Shown here piece after piece: positions 36,695 through 54,254 of a stretch of 64,000 nt of DNA (positions within the stretch are counted from its first letter, which is position 1; every line of letters starts with the position of its first letter). The DNA is from Belliella alkalica (lineage in GTDB: Bacteria; Bacteroidota; Bacteroidia; Cytophagales; Cyclobacteriaceae). The DNA is taken from positions 238,860-302,859 of the forward strand of contig NZ_JAKZGO010000005.1 in assembly GCF_022549785.1 (NCBI RefSeq). The letters are read 5' to 3'. The translations under genes and the position numbers were made by a program. The notes beneath the pieces are model-generated. The model saw only the letters and a program-made list of their open reading frames with translations, was not told the DNA's origin and did not search any database.

Positions 36695-37186
36695 ATGAAG
36701 CAAAAGCTACTAGATCAAATCATCAAAGAACTGCATCGTGAGGCCTATCTCTGGTCTCGGCAGTGCTGTGGTTTTGATGATGAACTAGCAAAAGATGTGC
36801 TTCAACATGTATACCTCAAAATATGGGAAGAAAAAGCCAAATACAATGCCGAATCAAAAGTCAAGACCTGGCTGTTTTCGGTAATTAGGTTTACAGCAAT
36901 CGAATGGTTGAAAAAAAACAAGAAATTGGTCCCTCTCCATGAAGATTATGATTTGGTGGAAGAAGAAAAAATACCTGAGGCAGCATCGCACGAGGAATTG
37001 ATCCAATTACTTCCTGAGCGACAAAAAGAGATTCTGCTGTTGGTCTTTTACCATCAACTGACCTTGGAAAAAGCAGCTGACATAATGGAAGTGAGCTTGG
37101 GTACAGCACGGACACACTATGACAGAGGAAAGAAAAAACTCAAGGAACTTATCCTAAAAAAACAAGTCTATGAAGCTACAAGATGA
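36695..37186 (+). CDS. ECF-type RNA polymerase sigma factor
   Basis: 163 residues. Region 2 includes DDELAKDVLQHVYLKIWEE and TWLFSVIRFTAIEWLKKNK. Region 4 includes LPERQKEILLLVFYHQLTLEKAADIMEVSLGTARTHYDRGKKKL, with the helix-turn-helix at about 120-150. It directs RNA polymerase to a small regulon when released from its anti-sigma factor. The next gene overlaps its 3' end and looks like that anti-sigma factor; the third gene is a periplasmic Spy/CpxP-like protein. The trio has the parts list of CnrH/CnrY/CnrX. Confidence 0.9.
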   Translation: MKQKLLDQIIKELHREAYLWSRQCCGFDDELAKDVLQHVYLKIWEEKAKYNAESKVKTWLFSVIRFTAIEWLKKNKKLVPLHEDYDLVEEEKIPEAASHEELIQLLPERQKEILLLVFYHQLTLEKAADIMEVSLGTARTHYDRGKKKLKELILKKQVYEATR

Positions 37187-37496
37187 TATGAATGACAAGG
37201 AGCTCGAAATGTTTTTTTCTGAGCTAAGAAATGAGAATAATAAGTTAACCATACCCGAATATCCAAAAAAACCATCTTCCAATTTCCGGAAACTGATACC
37301 AATTGGCATTGCAGCATCACTACTATTGGGGATTTTTGTTTGGAATCAAACGAAAGAAGAAACACCACTTTATCAGGACTTGATCATCATTTCACTGATA
37401 GAAGGGGAAGACAATGAACAAAGATTTGTCATAGAGCAAGCATCCTCCATGGATGTCTGGGAATCCCCCACGGCATCATTACTTAATGAATTCTAA
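37170..37496 (+). CDS. Small one-pass membrane protein, probable anti-sigma factor
   Basis: 108 residues (102 if it starts at the second ATG, 37188, just after the sigma stop). A short charged N-terminal helix (NDKELEMFFSELRNEN) would be cytoplasmic. One membrane span lies at about residues 43-59 (LIPIGIAASLLLGIFVW), and the periplasmic tail is acidic. Size and topology are like CnrY-type anti-sigma factors. No zinc-binding HxxxCxxC motif. It overlaps the sigma gene by 17 bp. Function is inferred from position and topology. Confidence 0.6.
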   Translation: MKLQDDMNDKELEMFFSELRNENNKLTIPEYPKKPSSNFRKLIPIGIAASLLLGIFVWNQTKEETPLYQDLIIISLIEGEDNEQRFVIEQASSMDVWESPTASLLNEF

Positions 37497-37511
37497 ACCA
37501 ATTATCACATT

Positions 37512-38258
37512 ATGAAACAATTACTCACAATTTATCTACTACTCCTGACAGGTTTTGTACAAGGTCAGGATTTATTTCAAGGCTCACTTTTTCCTGCTGA
37601 ATTGATCATGAAAAACAGGGACAAAATATCCTTGACAGACCAACAAGCTGATAAAATCAAAGCCATCCACGGAAAGAATGCCGGTGAATTCAGTACACTG
37701 AGATGGGACTTAGATGCAGAGAATGAAAAGCTCAAGAAAATGCTTCAAGAACCAAAAATAAATACTGAAGCAGCTCAGAAGCAGATGGACAAGGTCCTTA
37801 ATTTGGAAAACCAACTCAAAAAGAAGCAGTTTACTAATCTTTTGGCAATAAGAAATGAACTGAATGAAAAGCAAACAACGGAGTTATCGCAACTAGGAAA
37901 AAATACTACATTTAATTGGACAACAAGCGAAAGGGTTCAAGGAACTTCTTCACCAAACGTGGTTTCTGTCTTTAGTACAAAAGGATCAACTTCAGCCACT
38001 ACTTTAGATGGTGAGAAAAAAGCAAGTGTTGTCCTAAGAGGAACGAGTAACCTATCGGGAGAAAATAAACCACTTTTTATTGTCAAAAAGGACGGCAAAG
38101 AAACCGAGGTGAAGGACATGAATGATATGAATCCAACTGATATTGAAAGCATCACAGTATTAAAAGATGCTACGGCTACATTTCAATATGGTGCACGAGG
38201 TTCAAATGGAGTAGTTATCATTACATTGAAAAAAGATTCAGATTTCAAATTTGAATAA
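37512..38258 (+). CDS. Periplasmic Spy/CpxP-like domain fused to a TonB-receptor plug domain
   Basis: 248 residues. Signal peptide (cleavage near FVQGQ). Residues about 40-130 are helical with LTDQQADKIKAIH and LNEKQTTELSQL, two copies of the LTxxQ motif of the Spy/CpxP/CnrX fold. Residues about 165-245 read like the core of a SusC plug: VVLRGTSNLSGENKPLFIV, MNPTDIESITVLKDATATFQYGA and GSNGVVIITLKKD. No barrel follows. The ORF is intact with a good terminator, so it is not a cut-down SusC pseudogene. Third gene after a sigma and its anti-sigma; likely an envelope sensor or its reporter. Confidence 0.8.
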   Translation: MKQLLTIYLLLLTGFVQGQDLFQGSLFPAELIMKNRDKISLTDQQADKIKAIHGKNAGEFSTLRWDLDAENEKLKKMLQEPKINTEAAQKQMDKVLNLENQLKKKQFTNLLAIRNELNEKQTTELSQLGKNTTFNWTTSERVQGTSSPNVVSVFSTKGSTSATTLDGEKKASVVLRGTSNLSGENKPLFIVKKDGKETEVKDMNDMNPTDIESITVLKDATATFQYGARGSNGVVIITLKKDSDFKFE

Positions 38259-38333: not shown

Positions 38334-39767
38334 TCAATTCCAACAATCACATGGTCTAGATTGGGTTTCCCCGAATTTTTCATAAACCTCATCTAAGCGA
38401 TCTTGTTTTTCATCATAGGATATCCTGCTGTTTTTTTGAATTGCCAAGACCTGCTTTTTCAAGTTTTCGATTTCCGATTTTTTCTTGGTGTAGCAATTTA
38501 AATTACATTGAGCCTCGGCTCTTCTTCGTGAAGCCTCCTCCCCACTACTATTACGGAGTTCACTGAGGGCTGTATTTGCACCCAATATGTGATTCTCCAT
38601 AGTTGCAATCATCATATCATAAACCTCAATGGTAAAATCAGGACTATCATATCCTTGTCCCAGTGAAAGGATTTCATTGCTTTCCATAAACTGTGACCAA
38701 TTTTCACTATTCTGTTTTTCGACCATCGTATTGTAGCCGCTTGGATCACCATTGGCAAATGGATTTCCTCCCAACTGCTCTGTAAGGTAAGTATTGAAAC
38801 CCTTGTAGCCTCTGGAGTCGAAGGAAAAGTTGATGTTTTCATAACCTGTCATCAAGATCAAAGAGTTGGAATTTCTCATCCCAACAATCAGGTATGTATT
38901 TCCCTTGCCATCATACACGTAGCCAAGCCCTGAATAGCCAAGGACCTGTTTTGGACTTTCACCTGCAAATTTCACATCCGGTGATTTGGCCAGCCAGATC
39001 CCTACTTTTTTTCCTTCCAGAAAAACCACATATTCTTCACATTCCAAACCCAAAAAATCAACCTTCGTTTTTCGTCCAGATTTTTTAGCGAATTCAAAGA
39101 AATTTCGTCCATCAAAATCCGCTTTCCCATCATCATCCCCGCCCATATTCATAATAGTATAAAATGCCCCTTCCCGATTCTTGATGTAGGCAGCGAATCT
39201 TTCATTATGAGGATCAAAAACCTGGTGTATTTGACCATCCATTTTTTCTTTACTCATCATTTCCAAAGCTTTATTATCTTTGATTGACAAGCCATCATCT
39301 GTGCTATGATAAAAGTAGCTTCTTGCAAGTTCACTCGGCGCCATATAGATCAAGTAGCTTATTTTCTTATCAAACTGCATAATTGAAGGAGGAGGCAAGT
39401 CGTAATCTTTTGGTGTTTTTGATTTTACATTTTCACCAGGATTGTTTGAAGACACTGGTTTCGAAGGAGTTCCTAAACCAGACCCTTCGGAGCTGTCATT
39501 ACCCACAGCCCCTTGAAAATGACAAGGAAAACTGAAAATCCTCAATAATTCATTGTCCTGGAATTTCCCTGACAATTGATCGTCATCACAGTCTCCACTA
39601 TCGGAATCACTTTTTTCGGAATTTCCCAGACTTGTCTGTACCATTTTTTCAGAAGCATCTAGTGTTGCCCTGATTACTTTTCTTTGTTGGGCATAGGAAG
39701 ATGTAGCCAGCAAGAGGCTACACCACAATATTCCCAAAGTAGTTGTTGAAATCTTATTTAAGTTCAT
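38334..39767 (-). CDS. Large exported protein with a DUF4412-like segment
   Basis: 477 residues. Signal peptide with cleavage near SYAQ/QR. A low-complexity acidic/Ser stretch at about 45-70 is followed by a central part containing KKSGRKTKVDFLGLECEEY and GIWLAKSPDVKF, the arrangement of DUF4412 proteins ('G-x-x-C-x-x-Y ... v-W-v/l-A'). The C-terminal helical region is Lys/Glu-rich and ends with a CDC motif. No catalytic motif. Last gene of a five-gene operon of exported proteins; it overlaps the upstream gene by 4 bp. Confidence 0.65.
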   Translation of the reverse strand: MNLNKISTTTLGILWCSLLLATSSYAQQRKVIRATLDASEKMVQTSLGNSEKSDSDSGDCDDDQLSGKFQDNELLRIFSFPCHFQGAVGNDSSEGSGLGTPSKPVSSNNPGENVKSKTPKDYDLPPPSIMQFDKKISYLIYMAPSELARSYFYHSTDDGLSIKDNKALEMMSKEKMDGQIHQVFDPHNERFAAYIKNREGAFYTIMNMGGDDDGKADFDGRNFFEFAKKSGRKTKVDFLGLECEEYVVFLEGKKVGIWLAKSPDVKFAGESPKQVLGYSGLGYVYDGKGNTYLIVGMRNSNSLILMTGYENINFSFDSRGYKGFNTYLTEQLGGNPFANGDPSGYNTMVEKQNSENWSQFMESNEILSLGQGYDSPDFTIEVYDMMIATMENHILGANTALSELRNSSGEEASRRRAEAQCNLNCYTKKKSEIENLKKQVLAIQKNSRISYDEKQDRLDEVYEKFGETQSRPCDCWN

Positions 39768-40162
39768 AATATTCTTCCTTTAAATGACTCCTTCCTTTCT
39801 ACTGGTTTACTTCCATTATTGTAATCCGTAGTGGATTTGATATGAGCTGTATATCTATCAGCGGACTTGATATGCATCCAGAAGATCTCGTAAGCAATTG
39901 TAGCTTTACCCATATTTTGTGAAACAACCATTTTATACCTAGATCTTCCATCCGAGTTATCAAAATTCACAGGAACCTGACTCCAAATATGTTCAGATAT
40001 CGCATTGGATCCTTGTACAGATAGGATAGTCTTACCTTCTATAAGCACGAATTTTGGATAGATCCCATCTGATTTGATGTTGATAAACTCTAGGTTTTGC
40101 CCACATAATCCATTCATGCCAATGATATATACCAAGATTAGAGTAAGGATTGCACTTTTCAT
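39764..40162 (-). CDS. Small exported protein of unknown function
   Basis: 132 residues. Signal peptide with cleavage near GLCGQ/NL. The mature chain looks mostly beta (KFVLIEGKTILSVQG, YKMVVSQNMGKATIAYEIFW, YTAHIKSTTDY) and contains no recognised motif. It overlaps the DUF4412-like gene by 4 bp and begins 5 bp after the preceding stop, so it clearly belongs to the operon. Not recognised. Confidence 0.6.
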   Translation of the reverse strand: MKSAILTLILVYIIGMNGLCGQNLEFINIKSDGIYPKFVLIEGKTILSVQGSNAISEHIWSQVPVNFDNSDGRSRYKMVVSQNMGKATIAYEIFWMHIKSADRYTAHIKSTTDYNNGSKPVERKESFKGRIL

Positions 40163-40167
40163 TGGAG

Positions 40168-40881
40168 TTAAAGTTTATCTTTGACAATCATCTTGGCAAT
40201 ATCGATAGCTGTTTGCCTATTTTCACTTTGCTCATCGCTGATATCTGCTAAGATTGAGAAGGATAGGCCATTATATAGAACTTTGAGGCTTTTGTCATCT
40301 TCCATCCAAACTGCTTTTTCTCCTACTCCCTCTACCCATTCCCTGCTATTCTTCCCCGCCATGAAACCTTCCGCCATTTCTTTGGCAAGTTTGGCAGCTT
40401 CGGGATCTAAATCTCCTTTGTTGATGCGTTCATCCAAGGCTTTTCGGGCGTTGGAAATATCCTCATCTGTGATTTCACGATACAAATTTGTGAAATTCTC
40501 CAAAGTCATCGTAGTGAGCCAGCTTAGCTGTACCACATCCGGTTTATCTGTTTCTATCTTAGTGAACCCTAGATCTGTGACATGCATTCTCCCCTTTTCC
40601 CAACTATAGGATACATAGTGGGTTTTTGGATCTTCCAATACTTGGCTGTAATTTTTCGTTGCTTCGCTAGCTTCATAGCCAGTACATTTTGAAGCCATCT
40701 CCAATGTCAACAACTCATCCAATCTTCCATTAAATTTTTCCACATTTTGGATCCCCAGTTTTGCCGTCGTTTCGGCAATTTTTTCGGAAGCGACTATTGC
40801 CTCTGAGGACACCTTATCCCCAGCGCAGTTTTCGGCAGCCAAGAGAATAAATGCTAAGGAACTATATATAATTAGTCTCAT
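40168..40881 (-). CDS. Exported protein of unknown function
   Basis: 237 residues. The N-terminal hydrophobic segment ends LLAAENCAGDK. The Cys suggests a lipoprotein, but A-E-N-C is a poor lipobox, so plain secretion is also possible. The mature part is helical at the start (EKIAETTAKLGIQNVEKFNGRL) with a mixed middle (HYVSYSWEKGRMHVTDLGF) and a Lys/Ala-rich helix. No family recognised. ATGA overlap with the MORN-like gene upstream indicates coupling. Confidence 0.6.
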   Translation of the reverse strand: MRLIIYSSLAFILLAAENCAGDKVSSEAIVASEKIAETTAKLGIQNVEKFNGRLDELLTLEMASKCTGYEASEATKNYSQVLEDPKTHYVSYSWEKGRMHVTDLGFTKIETDKPDVVQLSWLTTMTLENFTNLYREITDEDISNARKALDERINKGDLDPEAAKLAKEMAEGFMAGKNSREWVEGVGEKAVWMEDDKSLKVLYNGLSFSILADISDEQSENRQTAIDIAKMIVKDKL

Positions 40882-42089
40882 AGTTTTTCAATTGTAAAGG
40901 TGATATAAACCTTATCCCCATCTCTATCGTGGGTAAAAAAGTAAGTTCTATTTGGAACTAGGTCTTTGATGAAAACCTCTAGATTAGTTGGCTTGTAGGC
41001 AACAGTGCTTAATGTCTGCTTTTCCATTATAAACCCTGAAATGATTATTTGGAGGTTTTCATTGCCAAGATTGTTGCTTACATCAAATTCGATCGTACGG
41101 TTTATAGCATGTCTACCTGCATACATAGGTCCATTCTGAAGAGACTTCAGAGGAGAGCTTTGATTGATCCTAAGCAGGTTTGAATTGCTAAGACTCCAGA
41201 TTCTTTTACTTTGATTATTTCTGGCTCGGATCTCCACTCTTGAACCATTGTTTGGCTTTGAAAACATTTGCACATCGGCTTGACCAAAAATATCCACATT
41301 GGGATAAAAAACCCCCGACTTGATGTCAGTATATATACCCTGAATTCTGACTCTGTATCTTCCTGCCAATGAAGGAGAAGAGCTCGCCAATGCAGGCATA
41401 TTCACATTGGATTTGGTAAATTTTGTTCCATTCCACGATCCTTCATTCAGCATTGCTCCCCAACCCCAAATGCCTGTAAAATCATTTCCTGTGATAGTAA
41501 ATTCAAAAGAACCTACTCTTCCTCCTTGGACAAATTTACCACGTAGCTTTCTATCAGAAGGATTATAGGTACCCTCTATTCTATTACCATTTCCATAAGT
41601 GCCCGTGACTTCATTGCCAATTTGCTCTAAAAATATCGGATCAAAATTAGTATTCCATCTTCCAGACCAAACAGCAGTACGAATTCTTCCCAGTGTCTGA
41701 ATATTCACCCGGTTTCCATCCCATTTATCCTGAGGTCTTGTGCTATTTCTATTATCTGTATTGGTACCAAAAAAACCTTTGAAGGAAAAGTTTTCAGATT
41801 GCCTGGACCCCATTAAAACAAATGATCTATCAAAGAAGAACTTCCCTTTCCAACTGCCATTATGGAAATCTCCTCGGTATTCTCTTCCTCCGTTGTCCAT
41901 TTCGCCGACAACAGTCCCATCACCTTTGTAATCGCCATAGACTACGAACTTCCCATTAGGCCATGATTCTTCTATCAGTCTAAGCTCTCCATAGGTTGAA
42001 TTGTGCGTGCCCGCCCAAATTTGAGCATAGGATTCCTGTGATCCCAACCAGCCTAGGGTCAGAATCAGCAATATCAGTGTCTTTTTCAT
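40878..42089 (-). CDS. Exported protein with MORN-like / Gly-Trp beta repeats
   Basis: 403 residues. Signal peptide with cleavage near SYAQ/IW. Residues about 25-230 repeat a short pattern of the type W-x-G-x(n)-G-x-Y/F-x-G-x-x-x-G (TYGNGNRIEGTYNPSDRKLRG, FTGIWGWGAMLNEGSWNG), similar to MORN strands, where each repeat adds a beta hairpin. The C-terminal part (about 240-403) is a separate beta domain with a basic stretch. Function unknown; MORN-type repeats often bind lipids or proteins. Second gene of the five-gene operon, 10 bp after the OmpA-family gene. Confidence 0.65.
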   Translation of the reverse strand: MKKTLILLILTLGWLGSQESYAQIWAGTHNSTYGELRLIEESWPNGKFVVYGDYKGDGTVVGEMDNGGREYRGDFHNGSWKGKFFFDRSFVLMGSRQSENFSFKGFFGTNTDNRNSTRPQDKWDGNRVNIQTLGRIRTAVWSGRWNTNFDPIFLEQIGNEVTGTYGNGNRIEGTYNPSDRKLRGKFVQGGRVGSFEFTITGNDFTGIWGWGAMLNEGSWNGTKFTKSNVNMPALASSSPSLAGRYRVRIQGIYTDIKSGVFYPNVDIFGQADVQMFSKPNNGSRVEIRARNNQSKRIWSLSNSNLLRINQSSPLKSLQNGPMYAGRHAINRTIEFDVSNNLGNENLQIIISGFIMEKQTLSTVAYKPTNLEVFIKDLVPNRTYFFTHDRDGDKVYITFTIEKL

Positions 42090-42099
42090 GATTTTTTAA

Positions 42100-43410
42100 T
42101 TATAGCTTGATGAACTCTACTCTTCTATTTTGTGCTTTTCCTGCGGAAGTATTATTTGGAGCTACAGGCTCAGACTGACCCTTTCCGTCGGTTTCGAGTC
42201 TTGAAGCCGCTATCCCAAAGTCATTGACAAGTGCAGTCTTCACAGCAGCAGCCCTCCTCTTTGATAAATCTAAATTTAGGCTTTCCGAGCCGTCACTATC
42301 CGTATGGCCTATGATCTGCACATTGACACCTGCATTTTGCTGAAGCGTCTCTGCAATCTCCTTCAATACCCCATAGGATGAATTCTTCAGCACATCAGAA
42401 TTGACATCAAACGTGATACTATTGGTAACAAACTTACCCTCAGTGATGAGCTTACTTCTTGTATCAGGTTCTCCAGCAGCAATCTTGAGATCGGCAAAAA
42501 ATAGATCTCCAGACCAATAATTAGTTCCAAATAGCAAAGAATAATCAACACCATCAGAAAATGCCCTAGGAAGATCGTATATTTTTTCATCATCTATGTA
42601 TACCCTTAACCTCGGACCTTGTCTCCACATCGAGACGCGATATTCGGCCAGATAATCCCCTGATTTACCTCCTTGGTTTCTAAGCTCAGTACCTGTTTTA
42701 CTTTTTGCAAAATAAGAGTATTGAATCCCCTCTGGAAGAGGGTGGATATCTACCAAAACCTGTGTTTCGGCACTCCAATGTATATCATAAGCCATTCTAT
42801 CAGGCATTGTTTCGACGAATATCGTCTTCATTCCACCCATGCTGTTAGAAAAATCTTCGCTCACTGTGATGCTAAATTCCAAAGTGAAATTTACAGGTAA
42901 CTTATTGATAAAATCAGGAACAAACACACCAGACTTGGCCGGAAGTAGCCAATTCATATCACTACCTTCAAACCTCACAATTTCTCCCCCGGAATCAGTA
43001 TTCCAATCAACAGGGAAATCTCCCATGGCAACATTTTCAAAATTTTCATAGGCAATTACTTTTTCTCCTGATACAAAATCAAACTTGGAATTTATATTTC
43101 TTTGTTGATTCCCACGAACCGGAAGCTCTACTTGCTGCTGCTGCTGTGAATTTTCTGAAGAACTTACTTCATAATCCTCATCAGCTTGAGTTTCCTGACG
43201 GCTGTTCTTTTTATCTCTCTTTCTGAAAATACTTCCAATTCCTTCTTCTATTTTATTGAGTGCCTTATCTACACCCTGCTCAGATTTTGATTCAGCGCGT
43301 TGAGTAGTTTGGTCTTTGCTACGCTGAATGACACGCTGCCCTACATTGTTTTGAGCCGCCAATTCTTCATGAAAAGCAAGAAGAATAAGAATTATTAAAA
43401 TTTTTTTCAT
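42100..43410 (-). CDS. OmpA-family exported protein, first gene of the operon
   Basis: 436 residues from the ATG at 43410. The 32-residue upstream extension lacks signal character. Signal peptide ending ELAAQ/NN, a charged helical stretch (VGQRVIQRSKDQTTQRAE) with a Gln run, a central beta-sandwich-like domain (about 120-310, LamG-like by pattern: FTLEFSITVSED, RLRVYIDDEKIYDLP), and a C-terminal OmpA domain with ITFDVNSDVLKNSSYGVLKEIA, IIGHTDSDGSESLNLDLSKRRA and GQSEPVAPNNTSAGKAQNRRVE. The OmpA domain binds peptidoglycan, so it ties the complex to the wall. Divergent from an ECF sigma gene. Confidence 0.9.
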   Translation of the reverse strand: MKKILIILILLAFHEELAAQNNVGQRVIQRSKDQTTQRAESKSEQGVDKALNKIEEGIGSIFRKRDKKNSRQETQADEDYEVSSSENSQQQQQVELPVRGNQQRNINSKFDFVSGEKVIAYENFENVAMGDFPVDWNTDSGGEIVRFEGSDMNWLLPAKSGVFVPDFINKLPVNFTLEFSITVSEDFSNSMGGMKTIFVETMPDRMAYDIHWSAETQVLVDIHPLPEGIQYSYFAKSKTGTELRNQGGKSGDYLAEYRVSMWRQGPRLRVYIDDEKIYDLPRAFSDGVDYSLLFGTNYWSGDLFFADLKIAAGEPDTRSKLITEGKFVTNSITFDVNSDVLKNSSYGVLKEIAETLQQNAGVNVQIIGHTDSDGSESLNLDLSKRRAAAVKTALVNDFGIAASRLETDGKGQSEPVAPNNTSAGKAQNRRVEFIKL

Positions 43411-43464
43411 CTCTCGTATGGTTTTGGTGATTTTTAATTTTATACTTAGTGCAAAAACCAACAT

Positions 43465-43506
43465 TTGGTAAACCCAACAAAAAAAAAAAAATTGAGGGTT
43501 TACCAA
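43465..43506. promoter_or_regulatory. 11-bp perfect inverted repeat flanking a 13-A tract
   Basis: TTGGTAAACCC (43465-43475) and GGGTTTACCAA (43496-43506) surround AACA..., a run of 13 A, and TTGA. It lies in the 125-bp divergent gap between the OmpA-family operon and the ECF sigma gene. Likely operator or bent-DNA site; no T-tract supports a terminator. Confidence 0.55.
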
Positions 43507-43535
43507 GACAAATTCCTTACACTAAAGGAGTAGAT

Positions 43536-44072
43536 GTGAAAGAATTATTGGACAGGTTACAAAATGGTGATCAATCTGCACTCGAGGAAGTGTATGTTGA
43601 CTATCGTGATCCTTTTTTAGATTTTCTAAAAAAGTATAAGTTGGATAGGAATCTTGCTGAGGATATCTATCAGGATGCTGTATTGGCATTATTTGAGAAT
43701 GCTGTCAAAGGAAAACTCAAGGACATCAAGAGCAGCATCAAGACTTATCTTTTTGCAATTGGAAAATACATGGTCTACAAAAAGTTGGCTGGCAATAAAA
43801 AAGACTCATTGCTATTCGCAGAATTGCCAGATGAGTTGGAGTGGGATAATTTGGAGTCTGAACAAACCAATACTATGCTTATCAAACTACAAACTTACCT
43901 AGGTCAGTTGGGGGAGAAATGTCAGGAGATAATCAGGATGAGCTATTTCGAAGAAAAATCGGCAGAAGAAATAGTCAATCTACTTGGATATCCAAACAAA
44001 GAAACACTGAAAAGCCAAAAATCCAGATGTATCCAACATCTAAAGAAAAAATTTGAGGTCTATGAGAAATAA
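43536..44072 (+). CDS. ECF-type RNA polymerase sigma factor
   Basis: 178 residues from the GTG at 43536. An in-frame GTG at 43449 would start inside the inverted repeat and A-tract region and gives no family sequence. An AAAGGAG at 43524-43530 sits at ribosome-binding distance, unusual in this genome and decisive for the start. KELLDRLQNGDQSALEEVYVDYRDPFLDFL is the typical ECF beginning, AEDIYQDAVLALFENAV is region 2, and CQEIIRMSYFEEKSAEEIVNLLGYPNKETLKSQKSRCIQHL is region 4. It overlaps the next gene, a membrane anti-sigma-like protein. Confidence 0.9.
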   Translation: MKELLDRLQNGDQSALEEVYVDYRDPFLDFLKKYKLDRNLAEDIYQDAVLALFENAVKGKLKDIKSSIKTYLFAIGKYMVYKKLAGNKKDSLLFAELPDELEWDNLESEQTNTMLIKLQTYLGQLGEKCQEIIRMSYFEEKSAEEIVNLLGYPNKETLKSQKSRCIQHLKKKFEVYEK

Positions 44073-44784
44073 TATGGAAGAGCTATTTGAAAAATACTTG
44101 AACAATAAGCTCAGTGAAGGAGAAAAGCATGATTTTGAAAATAGACTTGCTGAGGAGCCTGAATTGAAGTCAGAACTTGAGTTTAGGTATCAAATAAAAA
44201 TTGCAGTTACCTTGAACGAGAGAAAAAGACTCAAGGAGATTTTACAAAAAAAATCTCTTGAAGTCAGAAAACCAAGATTTGAGATTTGGAAAGTAGCGGC
44301 AGCTATCGTGACACTTCTGTCACTGACATTGACGGGATATTGGCTATTGAATCAAAACTCACAAAAAAGTGACTTTTATGTAACTTATTACGAGACTTTT
44401 CCAAACTTGGAAATGCCATCAATACGAGGTGGAAATACAGACAATAATTTGTCAGAGGCTTATCTTGCCTACGAAAATGAAGAATACCAGATTGCCAAAA
44501 ATCTTTTATTAGCAGACTTTGAAGAATCTGGAAGTCTGGTAAGCAAATTTTACGCAGCCATGGCAGCATTGGAACTCAACGAGTATACTGTCGCATACAA
44601 TCTTCTTGATAGTATTGGAGACAATATCCCAAGCATTTACCAAAACCCAAGAGATTATTATCTGGCACTACTTCTTTTACAAAAAAATAAAGTTGAACGA
44701 GCGAGGGTTAAATTGGAAAAAGTAGCAAACTCTGAGCACATCCTTGCTGGCAGGGCCAAACAATTACTTATGGAGATTTCTTAA
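44062..44784 (+). CDS. Membrane anti-sigma-like protein with TPR-like periplasmic part
   Basis: 240 residues from the ATG at 44062 (236 from the ATG at 44074). The N-terminal cytoplasmic helices EELFEKYLNNKLSEGEKHDFENRL and PELKSELEFR match the start of many Bacteroidota anti-sigma proteins. One membrane span (about 77-96, VAAAIVTLLSLTLTGYWLL). The outer part has TPR-like helix pairs (SEAYLAYENEEYQIAKNLLL, YYLALLLLQKNKVERARVKLEKVA). It likely holds the sigma factor and senses a periplasmic partner. Its 3' end overlaps the convergent CHAT gene by 21 bp. Confidence 0.75.
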   Translation: MRNNMEELFEKYLNNKLSEGEKHDFENRLAEEPELKSELEFRYQIKIAVTLNERKRLKEILQKKSLEVRKPRFEIWKVAAAIVTLLSLTLTGYWLLNQNSQKSDFYVTYYETFPNLEMPSIRGGNTDNNLSEAYLAYENEEYQIAKNLLLADFEESGSLVSKFYAAMAALELNEYTVAYNLLDSIGDNIPSIYQNPRDYYLALLLLQKNKVERARVKLEKVANSEHILAGRAKQLLMEIS

Positions 44785-47538
44785 CTTCCACCTTCTGTAA
44801 AGCCAAAAAAACGCAACTATCAAAATCACCATTAAAAAAATCACCAAATAATAATTGTAGCCGATTGGTGTATTCATCACTTCGGAAGTGTCACCGTTTA
44901 GGACAAATCCGGCCCAAAAATAGGGATGCATTTTAAGGGAGTTTTTATTAATGAAATCATTCTTGGCCATCCTGAGTGCTTCATCTTTAGAATGTCCATG
45001 TTTGAGATAAGTATAGAAATATTCCATTAATATACTGGTCTCTTTGTCTGAAACTGGCCAAAGGCTATATATAGATGCGCCTACTCCAGCATAAGTCAAT
45101 GCTCTCCCTAGCCCCATCAATCCAATACCTGGCTCCAGACTGCCCACCCCAGTATTGCAAGCGCTAAGCACAACCAAGTCAGCTGGGAAATTCAAGTTAT
45201 AAAGTTCATGAAAAAACAATTTCTCCTCATTCGAAAAAACTAATGCGGAATTTTCAAAAGAAAAATCCGCTTGCTCGGCATGCAATGCTAGATGATGTAT
45301 TTTGAATTTTGTCATATTTGAAATAAAAGAGCTCTTGGTAGCTTCAGAATCAAGAAATTCTATTCCACCAAATATGCTACTCACACGCGAAGCTTCCTTT
45401 TTATTGTTTTTGATACTGGTATATCTACTCCCCTCGTAAGAAGGAGCATAGCTTGCCAAAAATTTCCTGTAGAATGAGCTCTTCTTTTTTGCCCTATATT
45501 CAAAAAGCTGTAAGGAATAGGCATAACTTACCGAATTAGTCTCAATAAGGAATTTCCCATCAGAATCCACCAAAGCTTCAAATGGAATATAACTCAATTC
45601 AGCATGAGGGATGATTACCAACTTTCCCCTCCCAATTTCTAAATCTGACGGGAGTAATTTGTTGAAAAGTACTTTTGCTTCATTTACAAAATCTAATCTA
45701 GGGTCTGATAATTTATCTTTGAAAGCAAAGACTTCCTTCTGAATATCATCTCTCTTTCCGAGATCAAACAACTGAATCGTAGTTTCATTTATATTTAGAA
45801 GAAAAACTTTCTGAGGCGTTAAATAATATTTCAGTATTTGCTCGCTGGATTTCAGCATTTCCTGAATACGAATCAACTCAAAATTTAGGGATTCGCTTGT
45901 AAATTCATTCAAAGATTTTTCTTGGATTTGATTATCAATACTATCCAATAGTAATCTATACCTGATCAAATCTGGACTTTCATGAATTCCAGACTCTTCC
46001 AAAGTCTTAATAGCCAAAACCATTTCATTCTTCTTGTTTATCAACTCAAATGAACCACTTAGATTTTGAACATTTTTACTCAAAAACTCTTTGATATATT
46101 GTTGGGATTCGTTCTTTTCTATCTGATTTACACCAGTATGCAGCCCCTCAATGTTGACATTTGTTTTAGAAGTAAGGATTTTCAGCAATCCTTCAGAGAT
46201 TTGACCTTGTTTGGAAGCTAAACTTGGATTGTAGGCGCCTTTGAGATAAAATACTCCGAAGGTATTTGAAGCAAGGATGTACAAATTAAAGGCTGCCTGA
46301 ATCAAAGAATCATCATTTTCAAGTAGCGCCATCTCATAAATAATATTCGCAGATTTGATCAGTACATCAATATAACCTAAGTTGTTTTTACCTTGAAGAG
46401 AATTTATATCCAAGAGCCCTACTTCTGAAAATTCAACCACATTCCCTGTCCATATACTATATATTTCTGAAACCATTTTTTTTGATTCATCAATTTCCCC
46501 TATCCGAAAAAGCAACTCAGCTTTAATAACAGTTAAAATTAATTCACTTGTACCAATTTTAACGTTGTCAAAAAATTTGAGCGCATTGTTACAGTGAAAC
46601 AAAGAAGATTGCCATTGTTTATCATCATAATATACAATTGATTTATTTGCCTCCATTTTCATCTCAAAAAAATCTCTTGCGCCAAATGAGGACATTTCAT
46701 CATAGTAAGATAAGGCAAGGTCATATTGGCCTTTAGTTTTATACATGAAACCGATGTTTTCCAAAGAGGCCAAAAAATATGAGTCTAATCTTGTCAACTT
46801 GCTTTCTTTTACGGATGGGTAAAGTAACTTCATTTCTTTCCATCTCTGCGTTGCCGCTGCTTCTTCAAGACTAGCAGAAAGAAAAGTCACTTGGATAAAC
46901 AAAAAGCGAACCTCAAATTCCAGCAAATCCAACCTGTCATCAATGAGATTTTCTTTTGCATATTCAGCATATTGAGCAAACTTATCCATATAAAACCTTC
47001 CTCTCTTCAAGTCGCCATACTGGATAAAGGCATCTCGCAGATTATTGAAAATGGTCAACATATTCCAGTAATCATCAGAATAGTTATTGGACCACAGCTC
47101 GTAGGCTTTTTCATAGTGATAAATACATTGATTGGAATAGCCTGCCCAATCATATGCAAAAGCAAGGTTGTTGTGACATAAAGCCAATAAATTCAAATCC
47201 GCTGCAGGAAATTCCCCAAGCATTTCTACTGCATAATTTAAATATTCGGAAGCTTTGAGATAATTACCAAATTGCGAATAGATATCACCAAGATCATTTA
47301 ACAATTGAGCTTTCTCATTTGAGATCTCATCATTAGGAAACTTTTGAAGAGAATCCAAAGCCAATTCTAAGGCTCTTTCATAATCTCCTGCATCGTAAAA
47401 AAATATATAACCTTTATTGGTTTCCTCTTCTTTCTGAAATGCAAACAAATTAAATGTGACTAAAAATAAACTAATTAAAAAGCATTTACCTCCAATAAAA
47501 ACAAAATCCAAAAACACGGTCTTTTTCTTGGTATACAT
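44764..47538 (-). CDS. TPR-CHAT caspase-like protein, membrane anchored
   Basis: 924 residues. An N-terminal hydrophobic signal (about 15-35, FLISLFLVTFNLFAFQ), then TPR-like helices (GDYERALELALDSLQKFP, LNDLGDIYSQFGNYLKASEYL, QYDLALSYYDEM) to about 400, a helical linker, and the CHAT domain at about 600-880. The catalytic dyad is present: His753 in IHHLALHAE and Cys794 in VVLSACNTGVG. LGRALTYAGVGASIYSLWPVSD follows, as in other CHAT proteins. A C-terminal span (about 896-914) ends in a basic tail, so TPR and CHAT parts should face the periplasm. Convergent with the sigma/anti-sigma pair. Confidence 0.9.
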   Translation of the reverse strand: MYTKKKTVFLDFVFIGGKCFLISLFLVTFNLFAFQKEEETNKGYIFFYDAGDYERALELALDSLQKFPNDEISNEKAQLLNDLGDIYSQFGNYLKASEYLNYAVEMLGEFPAADLNLLALCHNNLAFAYDWAGYSNQCIYHYEKAYELWSNNYSDDYWNMLTIFNNLRDAFIQYGDLKRGRFYMDKFAQYAEYAKENLIDDRLDLLEFEVRFLFIQVTFLSASLEEAAATQRWKEMKLLYPSVKESKLTRLDSYFLASLENIGFMYKTKGQYDLALSYYDEMSSFGARDFFEMKMEANKSIVYYDDKQWQSSLFHCNNALKFFDNVKIGTSELILTVIKAELLFRIGEIDESKKMVSEIYSIWTGNVVEFSEVGLLDINSLQGKNNLGYIDVLIKSANIIYEMALLENDDSLIQAAFNLYILASNTFGVFYLKGAYNPSLASKQGQISEGLLKILTSKTNVNIEGLHTGVNQIEKNESQQYIKEFLSKNVQNLSGSFELINKKNEMVLAIKTLEESGIHESPDLIRYRLLLDSIDNQIQEKSLNEFTSESLNFELIRIQEMLKSSEQILKYYLTPQKVFLLNINETTIQLFDLGKRDDIQKEVFAFKDKLSDPRLDFVNEAKVLFNKLLPSDLEIGRGKLVIIPHAELSYIPFEALVDSDGKFLIETNSVSYAYSLQLFEYRAKKKSSFYRKFLASYAPSYEGSRYTSIKNNKKEASRVSSIFGGIEFLDSEATKSSFISNMTKFKIHHLALHAEQADFSFENSALVFSNEEKLFFHELYNLNFPADLVVLSACNTGVGSLEPGIGLMGLGRALTYAGVGASIYSLWPVSDKETSILMEYFYTYLKHGHSKDEALRMAKNDFINKNSLKMHPYFWAGFVLNGDTSEVMNTPIGYNYYLVIFLMVILIVAFFWLYRRWKLRNLHK

Positions 47539-49764: not shown

Positions 49765-50973
49765 TTATGAAGATTTATTGTCTTTAACCTTTTTTTCTAC
49801 TCTCAAGATAAAATCGCTCAATACATTCATATAATTGATAAATGCATCATAAGGAGAATCATAAGGGCTAAAATATGCATGGATATCTCCGTCTGAGAAA
49901 AACTTGGTACACATATAGTAGAAGTGATCCGATGTCTGTAAGTATATCCAATCCCTCTGAATCTCTTCATCATCAATTCCTTTAACTTTATCAGCCAATT
50001 CGTATAGCTTCCCAAACGCTTCATCCTGAAGATCATTACCCAACCATGCGGTCAAATCCCGCTCTTCATCCGCCCATGAAATCGGAGTAGGTACGTGAAT
50101 GGAAGAAACTATTTTGGCATTTCTTGCAACTTCTGATGTGGTAGAAAACCCAAAATCACTTCCTCTGAAAACCGCTTCCGGCAAAGCTCTCATAAACTCA
50201 AAAATCCCTGAATCTGCCCATTGATGCTCTCCGAATGTTTCATAATCCATAAATAAATTCAGAGTTTCTTCTTCTTTTGGTATTGCATTGATCCATTTGA
50301 CAAACTTATCAGTGGTCAAAGGATAATCTGGCCACGATTTGTTACTAAATCTAAAGGCTATATCATCACTCAATTGGAAGTTTTTCAACAGAACTTTTAA
50401 CTCTGGATTGATTGAATTTTTATAAACAAAATTCGGACTTTTCCAGCCTAAGATATGCTTTGCACCTTCGGTGAGTATGCCTTCATATCCAAGTTCTGCT
50501 ACAGTTGCCCCAATAGTATCTGAATATATTAATTCTGTGTTTCTGAAAATTTTTGGCTCATATCCATTGAAATGCTTTTTGATTTTTTCTTGATGGATTT
50601 TCACTAGTCTTACAAACTCATCTTTGTTTTTTAATGCACTTAGAGAGTGTCCATCAGTCTCATTCAATAGTTCTACATGCCCTGTGGCAACGAGCTTCTT
50701 GAAACTTTCCAAAACATCCGGCGCATAAGCTTCAAACTGATCCAAGCATACGCCTGAGATTGAAAAACTAACTTTGAAAGCCCCGTTATAATGATTAATT
50801 AAATCCAAAAGCAGCGCATTCATTGGCAGGTAACACTTTTGTGCTACTTTTCTCATGATGCTCTTATTGCTATAGTCATCCCAGTAATAATGGTCATCTC
50901 CAATATCAAAAAAACGATAAGGCTTGATCCTTAATGGTTGGTGTACTTGAAAGTAAAAACAGATAGTTCTCAT
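49765..50973 (-). CDS. Glycoside hydrolase family 57 (alpha-amylase-like)
   Basis: 402 residues. ICFYFQVHQPLR is the first GH57 conserved region with its His. HVELLNETDGHSLSAL and FRNTELIYSDTIG, which carries the likely catalytic Glu (in RNTELIYS), follow. LFMDYETFGEHQWAD is the region around the second acid (Asp). It hydrolyses or transfers alpha-1,4 glucan. No signal peptide, so it acts on internal glycogen or imported maltodextrin. It lies 3 bp after the GT4 gene; GH57, GT4 and debranching enzyme side by side is a conserved arrangement in Bacteroidota. Confidence 0.93.
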   Translation of the reverse strand: MRTICFYFQVHQPLRIKPYRFFDIGDDHYYWDDYSNKSIMRKVAQKCYLPMNALLLDLINHYNGAFKVSFSISGVCLDQFEAYAPDVLESFKKLVATGHVELLNETDGHSLSALKNKDEFVRLVKIHQEKIKKHFNGYEPKIFRNTELIYSDTIGATVAELGYEGILTEGAKHILGWKSPNFVYKNSINPELKVLLKNFQLSDDIAFRFSNKSWPDYPLTTDKFVKWINAIPKEEETLNLFMDYETFGEHQWADSGIFEFMRALPEAVFRGSDFGFSTTSEVARNAKIVSSIHVPTPISWADEERDLTAWLGNDLQDEAFGKLYELADKVKGIDDEEIQRDWIYLQTSDHFYYMCTKFFSDGDIHAYFSPYDSPYDAFINYMNVLSDFILRVEKKVKDNKSS

Positions 50974-50975
50974 GG

Positions 50976-52256
50976 CTATTCTTTTGTTATTTTATCGTAA
51001 ACAGTTACTAGTTTGGCGGCGACATGCTCCCACTTGAGGTTTTTTAGTTCCTCACTTCCTAATTCTTTAAACATTTTGGAAATACTAGGATAGTGTAAAA
51101 GAGCAAAAACTGCATCAGCCATTGCATCCACATCCCAAAAATCAATTTTCACGGCATTTTGTAAAACTTCAGCAACCCCCGATTGCTTAGAAATAATTAC
51201 AGGAGTATTGTGCCTTACGGCCTCAAGTGGTGCTATTCCAAACGGTTCGGAGACAGATGGCATCACATACACATCAGACATGGCATACATATCATCTACA
51301 TCTTGACCTTTTAGAAATCCTGTAAAATGAAACCGAGTACCCATTCCAAGCTCAGCTACGCGATCAATCATTCTATTGAGTAGATCACCATTCCCTGCCA
51401 TCACAAACCTTACATTAGGATCCCTATCAATGACTTTTTTGGCTGCTTCCACAAAATATTCTGGCCCTTTTTGGAAAGTAATTCTTCCCAAGAAAGTAAC
51501 AATTTTCTCTGGCACTTTCTTTTTGACTTTGGATTCTATGATACTTGCATCCAATACTGCATTGTGCAACACACTTACCTTATCTGGATGAACCCCATAC
51601 TTATTGATAACAATATTACGGGTCAAATGACTAACAGCTACCACATGATCCGCTGCATGAAGTCCAGCATATTCAATGTCAAAAACAGGCTTGTTGACTG
51701 ACTCTCCAGATCTATCAAACTCAGTAGCATGTATGTGCGCAACCAAAGGTTTTCCACTAATTTGCTTTGCTGCTATTCCTGCAGGATATGCCAACCAGTC
51801 ATGTGCATGAATCACATCATGGTCTTTTGATTTGGCGATTTGGGCTGCTACTAGAGCATATCGGGAAACCTCCTTCATCAAATCCTTTCCATATTTCCCA
51901 CTGAACTCAAACTTATTGCTAAAAACACTTTCATCTACATCCACGCGGTCATGCAAGGCATAGTCAGTATATTTTTTGAATTCTTCTGGACCAAGATAGG
52001 GCACCAAAAAGCTACCCACTTCAAGATAGGTGAGGTTTTTCCAAATCTTTTTGAATTTTTTTTCTTTATAATCTATCGTCACATCGCTGGCATTGACAAA
52101 ATCTGCCAAAGGCTCTTCATCTCCCCAGAGCTTCGGGACGACAAAAATGATATCTTGGTTATGATGAACCAACCCTTTGACAAGTCCATAGCAGGCAGTA
52201 CCAAGACCCCCAGAAATATGTGGCGGGAATTCCCACCCAAACATTAAAACCTTCAT
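50976..52256 (-). CDS. GT4-family glycosyltransferase / glycogen-synthase-like
   Basis: 426 residues. MKVLMFGWEFPPHISGGLGTA is the nucleotide-sugar N-terminal motif seen in glycogen synthases (W-E-x-x-P-x-x-x-G-G-L). IHAHDWLAY, FLGRITFQKGPEYFVEAA (second Rossmann domain, phosphate-binding R/K) and MPSVSEPFGIAPLEAV (E-x(7)-E retaining motif) are intact. It probably extends alpha-1,4 glucan using ADP- or UDP-glucose in the cytoplasm. Sits between GH57 and debranching-enzyme genes, with gaps of 2 and 9 bp. Confidence 0.92.
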   Translation of the reverse strand: MKVLMFGWEFPPHISGGLGTACYGLVKGLVHHNQDIIFVVPKLWGDEEPLADFVNASDVTIDYKEKKFKKIWKNLTYLEVGSFLVPYLGPEEFKKYTDYALHDRVDVDESVFSNKFEFSGKYGKDLMKEVSRYALVAAQIAKSKDHDVIHAHDWLAYPAGIAAKQISGKPLVAHIHATEFDRSGESVNKPVFDIEYAGLHAADHVVAVSHLTRNIVINKYGVHPDKVSVLHNAVLDASIIESKVKKKVPEKIVTFLGRITFQKGPEYFVEAAKKVIDRDPNVRFVMAGNGDLLNRMIDRVAELGMGTRFHFTGFLKGQDVDDMYAMSDVYVMPSVSEPFGIAPLEAVRHNTPVIISKQSGVAEVLQNAVKIDFWDVDAMADAVFALLHYPSISKMFKELGSEELKNLKWEHVAAKLVTVYDKITKE

Positions 52257-52265
52257 AAAAATAAT

Positions 52266-54182
52266 TTATACTTGTTTCACTAGATACATCATTCTCAATA
52301 ATTCTCCAATACTCCATGCTTGTGAAATAGCGCCTTTTGGTCTATGTGGAGGATCTCCATCATAAATCTCAGCTATAGTTCCCACACCGTATTGCGCCAT
52401 AACCTCATCAAAACCCTTGATGATCTTCTCGATAAAATTCTTCCCAGATTTGCCATGTAATCTCAAATAGCCTTCGGCAAAATGACCTAACAACCAAGGC
52501 CAAACAGTTCCGTTGTGATAGGCGACATCTCTTGTAAATTGATTCCCAAAATAATATCCTTTATATGCTGGATCATCTGGAGAAAGTGATCTAAGACCTT
52601 TTGGAGTCAACAACTTTGACTTTACAATCTCCAAGACTCTGTCCATTTGACCTTCCTCTAAAGGGCTATATGGCAATGATGTCGCAAAAAGCATATTTGG
52701 TCTGATTGACCAATCTTTGAAATTGCCATCTACATAATCTGCAAGATAACCTTTCTTCTCATCCCAAAAAACATCAACAAAGGTAGCTTTGACCTTTTCT
52801 GCTAAATCTGAAATTTCTTTATCACCTGTCAATTCATTATAAAAACACAAGGCGTTATACCATAATGCATTAATTTCCACTGGACATCCGATTCTTGGAG
52901 TAACAGGTCCATCTGAATTTACAGCATCCATCCAAGTAAGCGCAATCCCTTCTTCTCCTCCATACATCAAGCCATTTTCTTGCATGTGTATATTGTAGTC
53001 AGTTCCCGAACGGTATCCATCGATGATGCCTTTCATTTTTTCGAGATACTTCTTTTTGATAGTTTTGGTATCTCCTGTGAAGTTTTGATACTGCTGCAGT
53101 GACCAGAAGAACCAAAGAGGAGCGTCCATCGAATTCATGTTTCGCATCACTCCACTTCCTACATTAGGAAATAGCGGGCCATGCAAATCTGCAACCATCG
53201 TATCCATTATTTCTAAGAAAGTCTCCTTGTTGCCATCTGCCAAGGTCAAGCCCGGAGTAGCTACAAATGTATCTCTACCCCACCAGCCAAACCATGGGTA
53301 ACCTGCGATAACATGTGTTTTGCCATCTCTCTTTTGGATAAATTGACCAGCTGAATTTTTAAGACAGTTTTCAAAATTATTTCTGGGAATTCTTCTTGCC
53401 AACTCTTTTTCAAAAGCCCTCTGCCTTGTGCTTGGATCCGCTTCAGTCAAGCCAGCAGAAAAAATAACCGATTCCCCCTTTTCAATATCAAATTCAAAAT
53501 AGCCTGGAACAAATAAATCCTCCTGATAATCATAACCTCGCTCTCTTTCAAGGATATATTCAATATTATTATACCAGTTAGGATTTGAAACAAACTGATT
53601 CTTTTTTGACAATTGTAAAAATAAAGGGTTGTACTCTGGGTAAAGTTGAAAACTTGCACCGTTTGGGACTTTTTGAAAATCCCTATTCAAATTTTCATTT
53701 TCTTTTGAAAGATTATGATACCCTCTGAACGCCAAAAAAGGACTAATTCTAATTTTTGTAGGAGAATGTGCATCCAAGAGCGTATATCTTATCATCACAC
53801 GATCTCGGTTTGTATCCAAAATCAATTCTTTTTGAAGCGAAACTCCTCCTACCCTGTATGTTAATTTAGGAATAGGTTCAGAATCAAAATCTTCAAGATA
53901 CTTGTGTCCTCTTGGAGAATAATTCCCTGGGTATTTGTTGATCCCTAGATTAAAACTTGCCCCTCTTTGAATAACCGTCTCGTGAACAGTGGATAAAAGC
54001 ACATGTAGCTGTGTGTCAATTTGTGGTTGAGGAGAGACCAACAACCCATGATACTTCCTTGTATTACAACCTATGATCGACGTAGATGTATATGAACCAC
54101 CTCTATTGGTTCTAATAATTTCGCGATCTAGTGAATAGTTAAGGTTTATTAATTGGGTTTTGTCAAAATGTATGTAACTCAT
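52266..54182 (-). CDS. Glycogen debranching enzyme (amylo-alpha-1,6-glucosidase type)
   Basis: 638 residues from the ATG at 54182. The reading from 54230 starts with TTG and adds 16 residues of no family character. The N-terminal beta-sandwich (EIIRTNRGGSYTSTSIIGCNTRKYHGLLV) is the GDE N-domain. The (alpha/alpha)6 catalytic half has GYPWFGWWGRDTFVATPGL, ALTWMDAVNSDGPVTPRIG and VEINALWYNAL, and ends ISQAWSIGELLRM. It removes alpha-1,6 branches from glycogen in the cytoplasm. First gene of the GDE-GT4-GH57 operon. Confidence 0.95.
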   Translation of the reverse strand: MSYIHFDKTQLINLNYSLDREIIRTNRGGSYTSTSIIGCNTRKYHGLLVSPQPQIDTQLHVLLSTVHETVIQRGASFNLGINKYPGNYSPRGHKYLEDFDSEPIPKLTYRVGGVSLQKELILDTNRDRVMIRYTLLDAHSPTKIRISPFLAFRGYHNLSKENENLNRDFQKVPNGASFQLYPEYNPLFLQLSKKNQFVSNPNWYNNIEYILERERGYDYQEDLFVPGYFEFDIEKGESVIFSAGLTEADPSTRQRAFEKELARRIPRNNFENCLKNSAGQFIQKRDGKTHVIAGYPWFGWWGRDTFVATPGLTLADGNKETFLEIMDTMVADLHGPLFPNVGSGVMRNMNSMDAPLWFFWSLQQYQNFTGDTKTIKKKYLEKMKGIIDGYRSGTDYNIHMQENGLMYGGEEGIALTWMDAVNSDGPVTPRIGCPVEINALWYNALCFYNELTGDKEISDLAEKVKATFVDVFWDEKKGYLADYVDGNFKDWSIRPNMLFATSLPYSPLEEGQMDRVLEIVKSKLLTPKGLRSLSPDDPAYKGYYFGNQFTRDVAYHNGTVWPWLLGHFAEGYLRLHGKSGKNFIEKIIKGFDEVMAQYGVGTIAEIYDGDPPHRPKGAISQAWSIGELLRMMYLVKQV

Positions 54183-54254
54183 TTGGTTAAAAGTTTGGAG
54201 ATTTCCATAAAAATAGTTTTTACTATCCAAAAGAAAAACAATTAGGCAAAAAAT

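Follow-up and report, generated by a model that had tools for sequence, protein, structure and literature searches.

In membrane anti-sigma systems of the RseA-DegS-RseP and RsiW types, the site-1 protease is a PDZ serine protease. Several other systems come close to the locus described here. In Craspase of type III-E CRISPR, which comprises Csx29, Csx30 and CASP-sigma/RpoE, Cas7-11 and target RNA drive the tetratricopeptide repeat (TPR)-CHAT protease Csx29, whose cut in Csx30 falls between residues 427 and 429 (PMC10028731); for the TPR-CHAT protein of Craspase, another paper cites from others a cut after Leu407 (PMC9729208). The same paper states that separase cuts after Arg and that its residue D2151 reads the P1 Arg, the equivalent residue in the Craspase TPR-CHAT protein being Lys670 (PMC9729208). 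In Myxococcus, DdvS becomes active once DdvA is inactivated (PMC4374960). In ECF54, a group of extracytoplasmic function (ECF) sigma factors, CHAT-domain proteins lie in the conserved sigma neighbourhood, with no anti-sigma mentioned there (PMC8999054), and an ECF sigma also occurs together with a TPR protein in caspase conflict systems, which are of other composition (PMC8195603). Here we analysed a 64,000-nucleotide stretch of the Belliella alkalica genome (contig NZ_JAKZGO010000005.1; hereafter the window), in which adjoining genes encode an ECF sigma factor, a predicted membrane anti-sigma factor and a TPR-CHAT protease. We consider it likely that these genes form a CRISPR-free envelope relay, in which the CHAT protein would be the dedicated site-1 protease of the anti-sigma and would thereby release the ECF sigma.

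The three genes were confirmed by open reading frame (ORF) and profile scans (Table 1). The sigma product exceeded the NCBIfam sigma70-ECF cut-off (59.6 vs 42.9 bits) and was slightly below the cut-off of the Pfam sigma models; the GTG at 43536 is most likely the start of its gene. The second product had no family over cut-off in the Pfam and NCBIfam scans; its N-terminal part resembled an anti-sigma model weakly (E 0.002). It is predicted to be an anti-sigma from its position, its conserved N-terminal domain, its single membrane helix and the many relatives placed likewise, and it has the layout of RseA: an N-terminal domain, one membrane helix and a predicted extracytoplasmic domain, encoded after its sigma. 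Its AlphaFold2 model (mean predicted local distance difference test score, pLDDT, 91.6) comprised helices to residue 105, a coil at 106-124 and helices at 125-235. The N-terminal domain was helical in this model, with no ASDI family match over cut-off, and the outer domain had a TPR fold according to weak Foldseek matches. The preliminary description of this DNA had the anti-sigma gene overlapping the sigma gene, which holds (20 bp) if translation begins at TTG 44053; ATG 44074, just past the sigma stop, is the better start and leaves no overlap.

The TPR-CHAT product matched the CHAT domain PF12770 at E 5e-55 over residues 624-883, with TPR matches upstream. Its AlphaFold2 model (mean pLDDT 85.7) had Csx29, separases, the Craspase TPR-CHAT protein and DdvA as its best Protein Data Bank (PDB) matches in Foldseek, and TPR proteins were among the matches listed for full-length CHATs against the PDB. 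H753 and C794 were invariant in all 109 aligned CHATs (57 paired and anchored, 52 others), which together with the PF12770 match bears out the initial call of an intact TPR-CHAT protein with a His753/Cys794 dyad. The other gene-level features first described were also recovered: the 21-bp convergent overlap with the anti-sigma gene (which ends at 44784, the CHAT ORF reaching 44764), and an N-terminal signal and C-terminal span, found as a hydrophobic segment and a helix at 894-914. In the wider set the Cys was lost in one of 86 CHATs, that of L228 (L-numbers denote relative loci and G-numbers the genomes compared; the window CHAT is the TPR-CHAT protein of this locus). This gene (L228 9719-12496) lies beside an anti-sigma of the Met type described below and may encode a pseudoprotease.

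Table 1 Features of the sigma/anti-sigma/CHAT locus, with window coordinates.
Feature	Position	Strand	Basis or remark
Envelope protein of the OmpA family, gene divergent from that of sigma; candidate target	42100-43410	-	PF00691, E 5e-23
Second GTTTACC-N17-CTAA copy, facing the OmpA-family gene	43446-43473	-	
Candidate ECF-type promoter GTTTACC-N17-CTAA, facing the sigma gene	43498-43525	+	
ECF sigma factor	43536-44072	+	GTG start; longer ORF available from 43449
Single-pass anti-sigma (predicted)	44074-44784	+	N-terminal domain, membrane helix ~74-92, linker 106-124, TPR-like outer domain 125-236
R118-G119 of anti-sigma, predicted scissile bond	44425-44430	+	Conservation; covariation with CHAT E715/D831
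TPR-CHAT protease, 924 aa	44764-47538	-	N-terminal hydrophobic segment, C-terminal membrane anchor
C-terminal membrane helix of CHAT, residues 894-914, then basic tail	44797-44859	-	
Asp831 of CHAT, predicted S1 pocket residue	45046-45048	-	Covariation
Catalytic Cys794 of CHAT	45157-45159	-	Alignment
Catalytic His753 of CHAT	45280-45282	-	Alignment
Glu715 of CHAT, predicted S1 pocket residue	45394-45396	-	Covariation

The locus resembles Craspase in that a TPR-CHAT protein with a His/Cys dyad acts, here by prediction, on the partner of an ECF sigma, in that Foldseek ranks Csx29 first for the CHAT model, and in that the TPR-CHAT gene adjoins an ECF sigma and its binding partner, the binding between these two being presumed in our case. 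It differs in that the module proteins have membrane helices and the predicted P1 residue is Arg; Csx29 and Csx30 are not known to have membrane helices. Fold match and dyad likewise connect the CHAT model to separase, but D831 lies four residues before the D2151-equivalent position in the profile alignment, and because of this offset an identity of the two residues is unsupported. DdvA (PDB 8rot and 8rw5), judged by the PDB names, is also a transmembrane anti-sigma whose structure holds a CHAT domain; there anti-sigma and CHAT form one polypeptide, whereas here they are separate ORFs. As in the RseA-DegS-RseP and RsiW systems, the membrane anti-sigma is predicted to be cut first outside the membrane, but site 1 would here be cut by a caspase/separase-like cysteine protease whose gene lies alongside. 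Unlike in ECF54, an anti-sigma adjoins the sigma. No CRISPR-like direct repeats were found at 34000-58000, and the 17 locus and neighbouring proteins that were scanned included no Cas family, other parts of the genome not having been searched for Cas genes. No description of the three-gene module was found in the open-access literature; most subscription papers were outside the scope of this search, and a prior mention is possible.

The arrangement of CHAT, sigma and anti-sigma genes is far beyond chance. The host genome has four CHAT genes, none of them more than 3.4 kb from a sigma/anti-sigma pair. The window copy is tail to tail with its pair, as is one other, and the remaining two stand in tandem behind a third pair, at L006 7240-13676. 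Three such anti-sigmas were listed in this 4.95-Mb genome. The neighbourhood, which the preliminary description had proposed to look for in relatives, is conserved there. In other orders of the class, a sigma and an anti-sigma lay within 4.2 kb of the CHAT in 24 of 28 regions taken from CHAT matches; these regions represent 29 CHAT rows picked from the best-scoring ones among the matches listed and are not a random draw. From the anti-sigma side, a CHAT match was found within 10 kb of 35 of 38 anti-sigma matches at E <= 2.2e-17 (20 hand-chosen genomes, 19 with CHAT). The anti-sigma side of the linkage rests on this 20-genome count and not on the 40 anti-sigma-centred regions, which contained a CHAT in 33 (one weak) and were chosen partly in the knowledge that a CHAT was nearby, or, for L237, L238 and L258, that none was. 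A further set of named genomes comprised the best 80 of 563 CHAT matches; 49 loci were flagged with an anti-sigma, including those of Aquimarina, Gaetbulibacter, Kordia, Moheibacter, Patiriisocius, Spongiivirga and Myroides, and 43 were left after six doubtful ones had been removed (L270, L305, L315 and L342, in which the "anti-sigma" was a CHAT fragment; L292, without the Cys; and L337, too far away). No anti-sigma match was found in 31 of the 80, some of them on short contigs. A CHAT lay less than 1 kb from 67 of 100 anti-sigmas; 49 of these pairs were tail to tail and two head to head, while in 16 both genes ran in one direction.

Such clustering might alternatively reflect a shared mobile or defence island whose products have no direct biochemical contact. 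Match numbers do differ among relatives, and CHAT proteins occur in conflict systems. We regard an island as highly improbable, however, given the predominance of the tail-to-tail order among close pairs, the missing CRISPR-like array at 34000-58000, the metabolic-type neighbours on one side, and the lack of any PADLOC match for sigma, anti-sigma or CHAT. The OmpA-family neighbour does match PADLOC ZorB models, through its OmpA domain.

Gene presence told the same story as gene order, in that CHAT and anti-sigma go together. Among 148 genomes of the family, 27 were CHAT-less by Pfam search (G082 among them); an anti-sigma at E <= 1e-15 was present in 90 of the 121 genomes not shown to be CHAT-less vs 5 of the 27 CHAT-less ones (four full-length; Fisher p 1e-7, kinship not corrected for). 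This tally is a lower bound, with 19 candidates scored per genome. No full-length anti-sigma was found in the CHAT-less congener G040.

Topology was read from hydropathy and charge counts and not from a dedicated topology program. Of the 86 CHATs near an anti-sigma, 84 had a C-terminal hydrophobic helix, followed in all 84 by a tail of net positive charge, and 77 had an N-terminal hydrophobic segment; the membrane helix of the anti-sigma was more positive on its N side than on its C side in 91 of 100. From these helices and flanking charges, both outer domains should be periplasmic; the predicted compartment, outside the inner membrane, is thus the same for the CHAT domain as for the TPR part of the anti-sigma, as had been supposed. 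The C-terminal anchor also tracked pairing: 57 of 61 paired CHATs had it, but of the 48 unpaired ones 20 did (Fisher p 2e-9, without correction); loci L037-L076 were chosen by likeness to the window CHAT, and the paired share in this 109-CHAT set therefore leans towards the module. CHATs ending just after the CHAT domain were mostly unpaired. Among relatives of the family, the CHATs of L105-L109 and L111-L114 have neither a C-terminal anchor nor a sigma/anti-sigma pair.

The predicted cleavage site lies in the variable linker of the anti-sigma, which joins its membrane helix to its TPR domain. In the alignment of 59 linked anti-sigmas, whose linker consensus is Y-P-N-x-x-x-P-x-x-R-G, the R118 column was Arg in 52 of 57, and the following residue was Gly in 31, Ser in 16, Asn in 4 and Thr in 3 (together 54 of 57). 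At 3.72 bits, this column was the second most conserved apart from the start Met, its immediate neighbours having mostly 0.6-1.5 bits. In a wider set of 101 rows, Arg occupied the exact column in 83, a count that still includes one ORF that is not an anti-sigma (L047|9-1007), and was off by one or two places in L043, L064 and L257. The other rows had Met before a small or Asp residue (11), Lys (2), Lys in L137, which comes from a CHAT-less genome, or an ambiguous linker (L063). A regular-expression count of linkers with Arg before a small residue (94 of 100) was discarded: background windows matched in 76 of 294, and the pattern also counts Arg elsewhere in the linker.

The linker residue covaries with the CHAT protein. 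Linker classes (Met, Lys and Arg) were assigned by hand from the linkers prior to any comparison with the CHATs, and were later redone by rule. E715 and D831 were the CHAT columns that separated these classes best. E715 was present in 72 of 73 CHATs of the Arg class, in none of 11 of the Met class and in neither of two of the Lys class; the lone Arg-class exception, L225, is a misassigned, poor partial ORF and was kept out of the tree. Position 831 was Asp in 73 of 73 of the Arg class, Glu in 10 and Thr in one of the Met class, and Glu in both of the Lys class. With linkers called by rule in 86 pairs, 71 of 72 CHATs with E715 faced Arg (the exception being the ambiguous L063) and 13 of 14 without it faced Met or Lys (the exception being L225). 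On a CHAT tree of 85 rows reconstructed with both columns omitted, linker class, E715 and D831 each changed three times and on the same branches (L115 with L219-L224, L226 and L227; L228 with L229; L096 with L102). In the named set, E715 was present in 42 of 43 CHATs, facing Arg in 35 and Met in one (L296, which carries Arg-Gly two residues further); the CHAT without E715, L301, has a linker read as Lys and no recognised sigma. No new Met-type pair was found among these 43 loci, and the swap rests on the first set. In the CHAT model, E715 opens helix 712-723 after strand 692-698, and D831 opens helix 831-846, after strand 821-825 and past the catalytic Cys, places which we take to resemble the S1 positions of clan CD peptidases. 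Across the alignments, then, the predicted acidic pocket pairs with a basic linker residue, Lys being tolerated. This covariation is what a P1 residue and the S1 pocket that receives it would show, and it gives a specific reason to take the anti-sigma as the substrate.

A candidate regulon was indicated by the motif GTTTACC-N17-CTAA. Both copies lie within the 125 bases separating the OmpA-family gene (start 43410) from the sigma gene (43536), and the exact pattern occurred twice in the whole genome, both times here, vs 16 occurrences of a reversed control pattern. The motif was spotted by eye in four of five intergenic stretches and searched for afterwards; of these, the window, L038 and L095 have it fully, L037 on one side, and L072 not at all. 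A looser pattern gave the same two matches in the window, a number attained in 6 of 100 shuffles and thus weak by composition alone. In 142 retrieved sequences longer than 8 kb, 17 of its 35 matches fell no more than 260 bases from a sigma start; they were spread over ten sequences, seven of which had two such matches (the window, L006, L038, L095, L236, L244 and L253). A motif search upstream of 92 sigma genes returned A/T-rich words only. The sigma-facing copy should be treated with caution, since it lies about 11 bases before the sigma start and would therefore give a near-leaderless message. OmpA-family homologues (E < 1e-45) occurred in eight other relative loci and were divergent from the sigma in L037, L038, L072 and L095. 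The motif positions suggest that both its own operon and the OmpA-family gene are under the control of the sigma. Behind the latter, 38334-42089 holds four genes with no assigned function, three of which were scanned and had no Pfam match; homologues of all four are present in L037, and of one also in L093 and L095.

In the proposed relay, the anti-sigma would keep the ECF sigma at the inner membrane, in which the CHAT protein would also be anchored, so placed that both its TPR and its CHAT domain face the periplasm. An envelope signal, probably acting via the TPR array, would activate the CHAT domain, which would cut the extracytoplasmic linker of the anti-sigma after Arg118 so that the TPR domain is shed. 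A site-2 protease is presumably still needed: an intramembrane protease of the M50/RseP kind, followed by cytosolic proteases, would free the sigma, which would then transcribe its own operon and the divergent OmpA-family gene. The genome has two genes of the M50 peptidase family (PF02163), but this family was also found in 14 of 14 control genomes and is hence unspecific. The preliminary description had a periplasmic CHAT domain cutting the TPR-like part of the anti-sigma to free the sigma; linkage, dyad, compartment and covariation support this interpretation, while the predicted site has moved from the TPR part to the R118-G119 bond in the linker. None of the three outcomes named there as refuting was seen: relatives keep the linkage, the dyad residues align, and the two outer domains are predicted in one compartment.

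Several points weigh against this reading. The cut itself, its trigger, the site-2 step, the freeing of the sigma and the set of target genes are inferred, and no cleavage was observed. There were three independent swaps of linker and pocket, two of them forced by well-supported branches, and with two or three swaps a formal sign test on the tree is powerless (p 0.5); one of the swapped CHATs, L228, is the one without its Cys. In the named set, four of the 42 CHATs with E715 face Lys and two face an unassigned linker. The promoter motif is missing before the CHAT gene, which is thus not obviously in the same regulon. Covariation, moreover, fits binding as well as cutting, and this bears on the main rival, a securin-like arrangement: the linker Arg would sit uncut in the CHAT pocket as a pseudosubstrate, the anti-sigma would restrain the protease, and an outside signal would free both the sigma and the CHAT, which would act on some other substrate. 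The resemblance of the CHAT model to separase, including securin-bound structures, agrees with this. The small residue that almost always follows the Arg, in a predicted coil flanked by two folded parts, suits a cut site, and Csx29 does cut the sigma-binding Csx30 (PMC10028731); we consider the securin-like arrangement unlikely.

Further difficulties concern CHATs and anti-sigmas found apart. Of the 77 membrane-anchored CHATs, 20 had no recognised pair nearby (three have an anti-sigma alone). Six full-length anti-sigmas came from CHAT-less genomes, two of these outside the family; the linker keeps R-G, R-S or M-G in L261, L263 and L262, and that of L137 has Lys-Thr, leaving L138 and L139 as the only two clearly without the site. 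Two of the three site-keeping genomes are drafts of 88-91% completeness. With three of six keeping it, the linker site does not simply vanish with the CHAT, and motif loss in CHAT-less genomes was rejected as a clean proof. Beyond the paired and anchored CHATs there were 52 others, most of them without a paired anti-sigma; 51 of these 52 retained E715 and 51 retained D831, and the substrates of the CHATs of L105-L109 and L111-L114 may therefore also carry a basic P1 residue. These observations are in keeping with a separate envelope task of CHAT, either quality control or cell death, that is no more than coordinated with the sigma couple, the anti-sigma being inactivated by other proteases. 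A separate task would leave unexplained both the joint change of linker residue and CHAT pocket and the link between anchor and pairing, and seems to us quite improbable. Cleavage of the anti-sigma by the CHAT protein remains the reading that we prefer.

Two other gene groups were noted in the vicinity. At 36695-38258, another ECF sigma is followed by a protein with heavy-metal-resistance and TonB-receptor plug domains, the former as in CnrX; the arrangement has the look of a further sigma circuit, one that includes an unusual fusion. At 49765-54230 there is a glycogen-type cluster comprising a glycoside hydrolase of family GH57, a glycosyltransferase and a glycogen debranching enzyme.

The module is best read as a variation on the theme of Csx29/Csx30/sigma and DdvA that is widespread in Bacteroidota. 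A broader proposition is that CHAT proteases act throughout Bacteroidota as dedicated site-1 enzymes for a class of membrane anti-sigmas, that P1 residue and S1 pocket evolve there as matched pairs (Arg with Glu715/Asp831 and Met with a lost Glu), and that the Csx29/Csx30/sigma branch of type III-E CRISPR is a captured version of such a relay; we give this about an even chance. Only 6% of Bacteroidetes ECF sigmas have a class I anti-sigma domain encoded nearby, the figure across all phyla being 32%, and control by other means has been suspected (PMC7406223). The module offers one such alternative mode of ECF control, for which the protease and the bond can be named and a swap of specificity exists in nature. 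If the broader proposition is true, it would partly answer how ECF sigmas of Bacteroidota are controlled without the usual anti-sigmas. The module itself would give relatives of caspase and separase a signalling role in ordinary bacteria, and may represent the setting from which Craspase arose.

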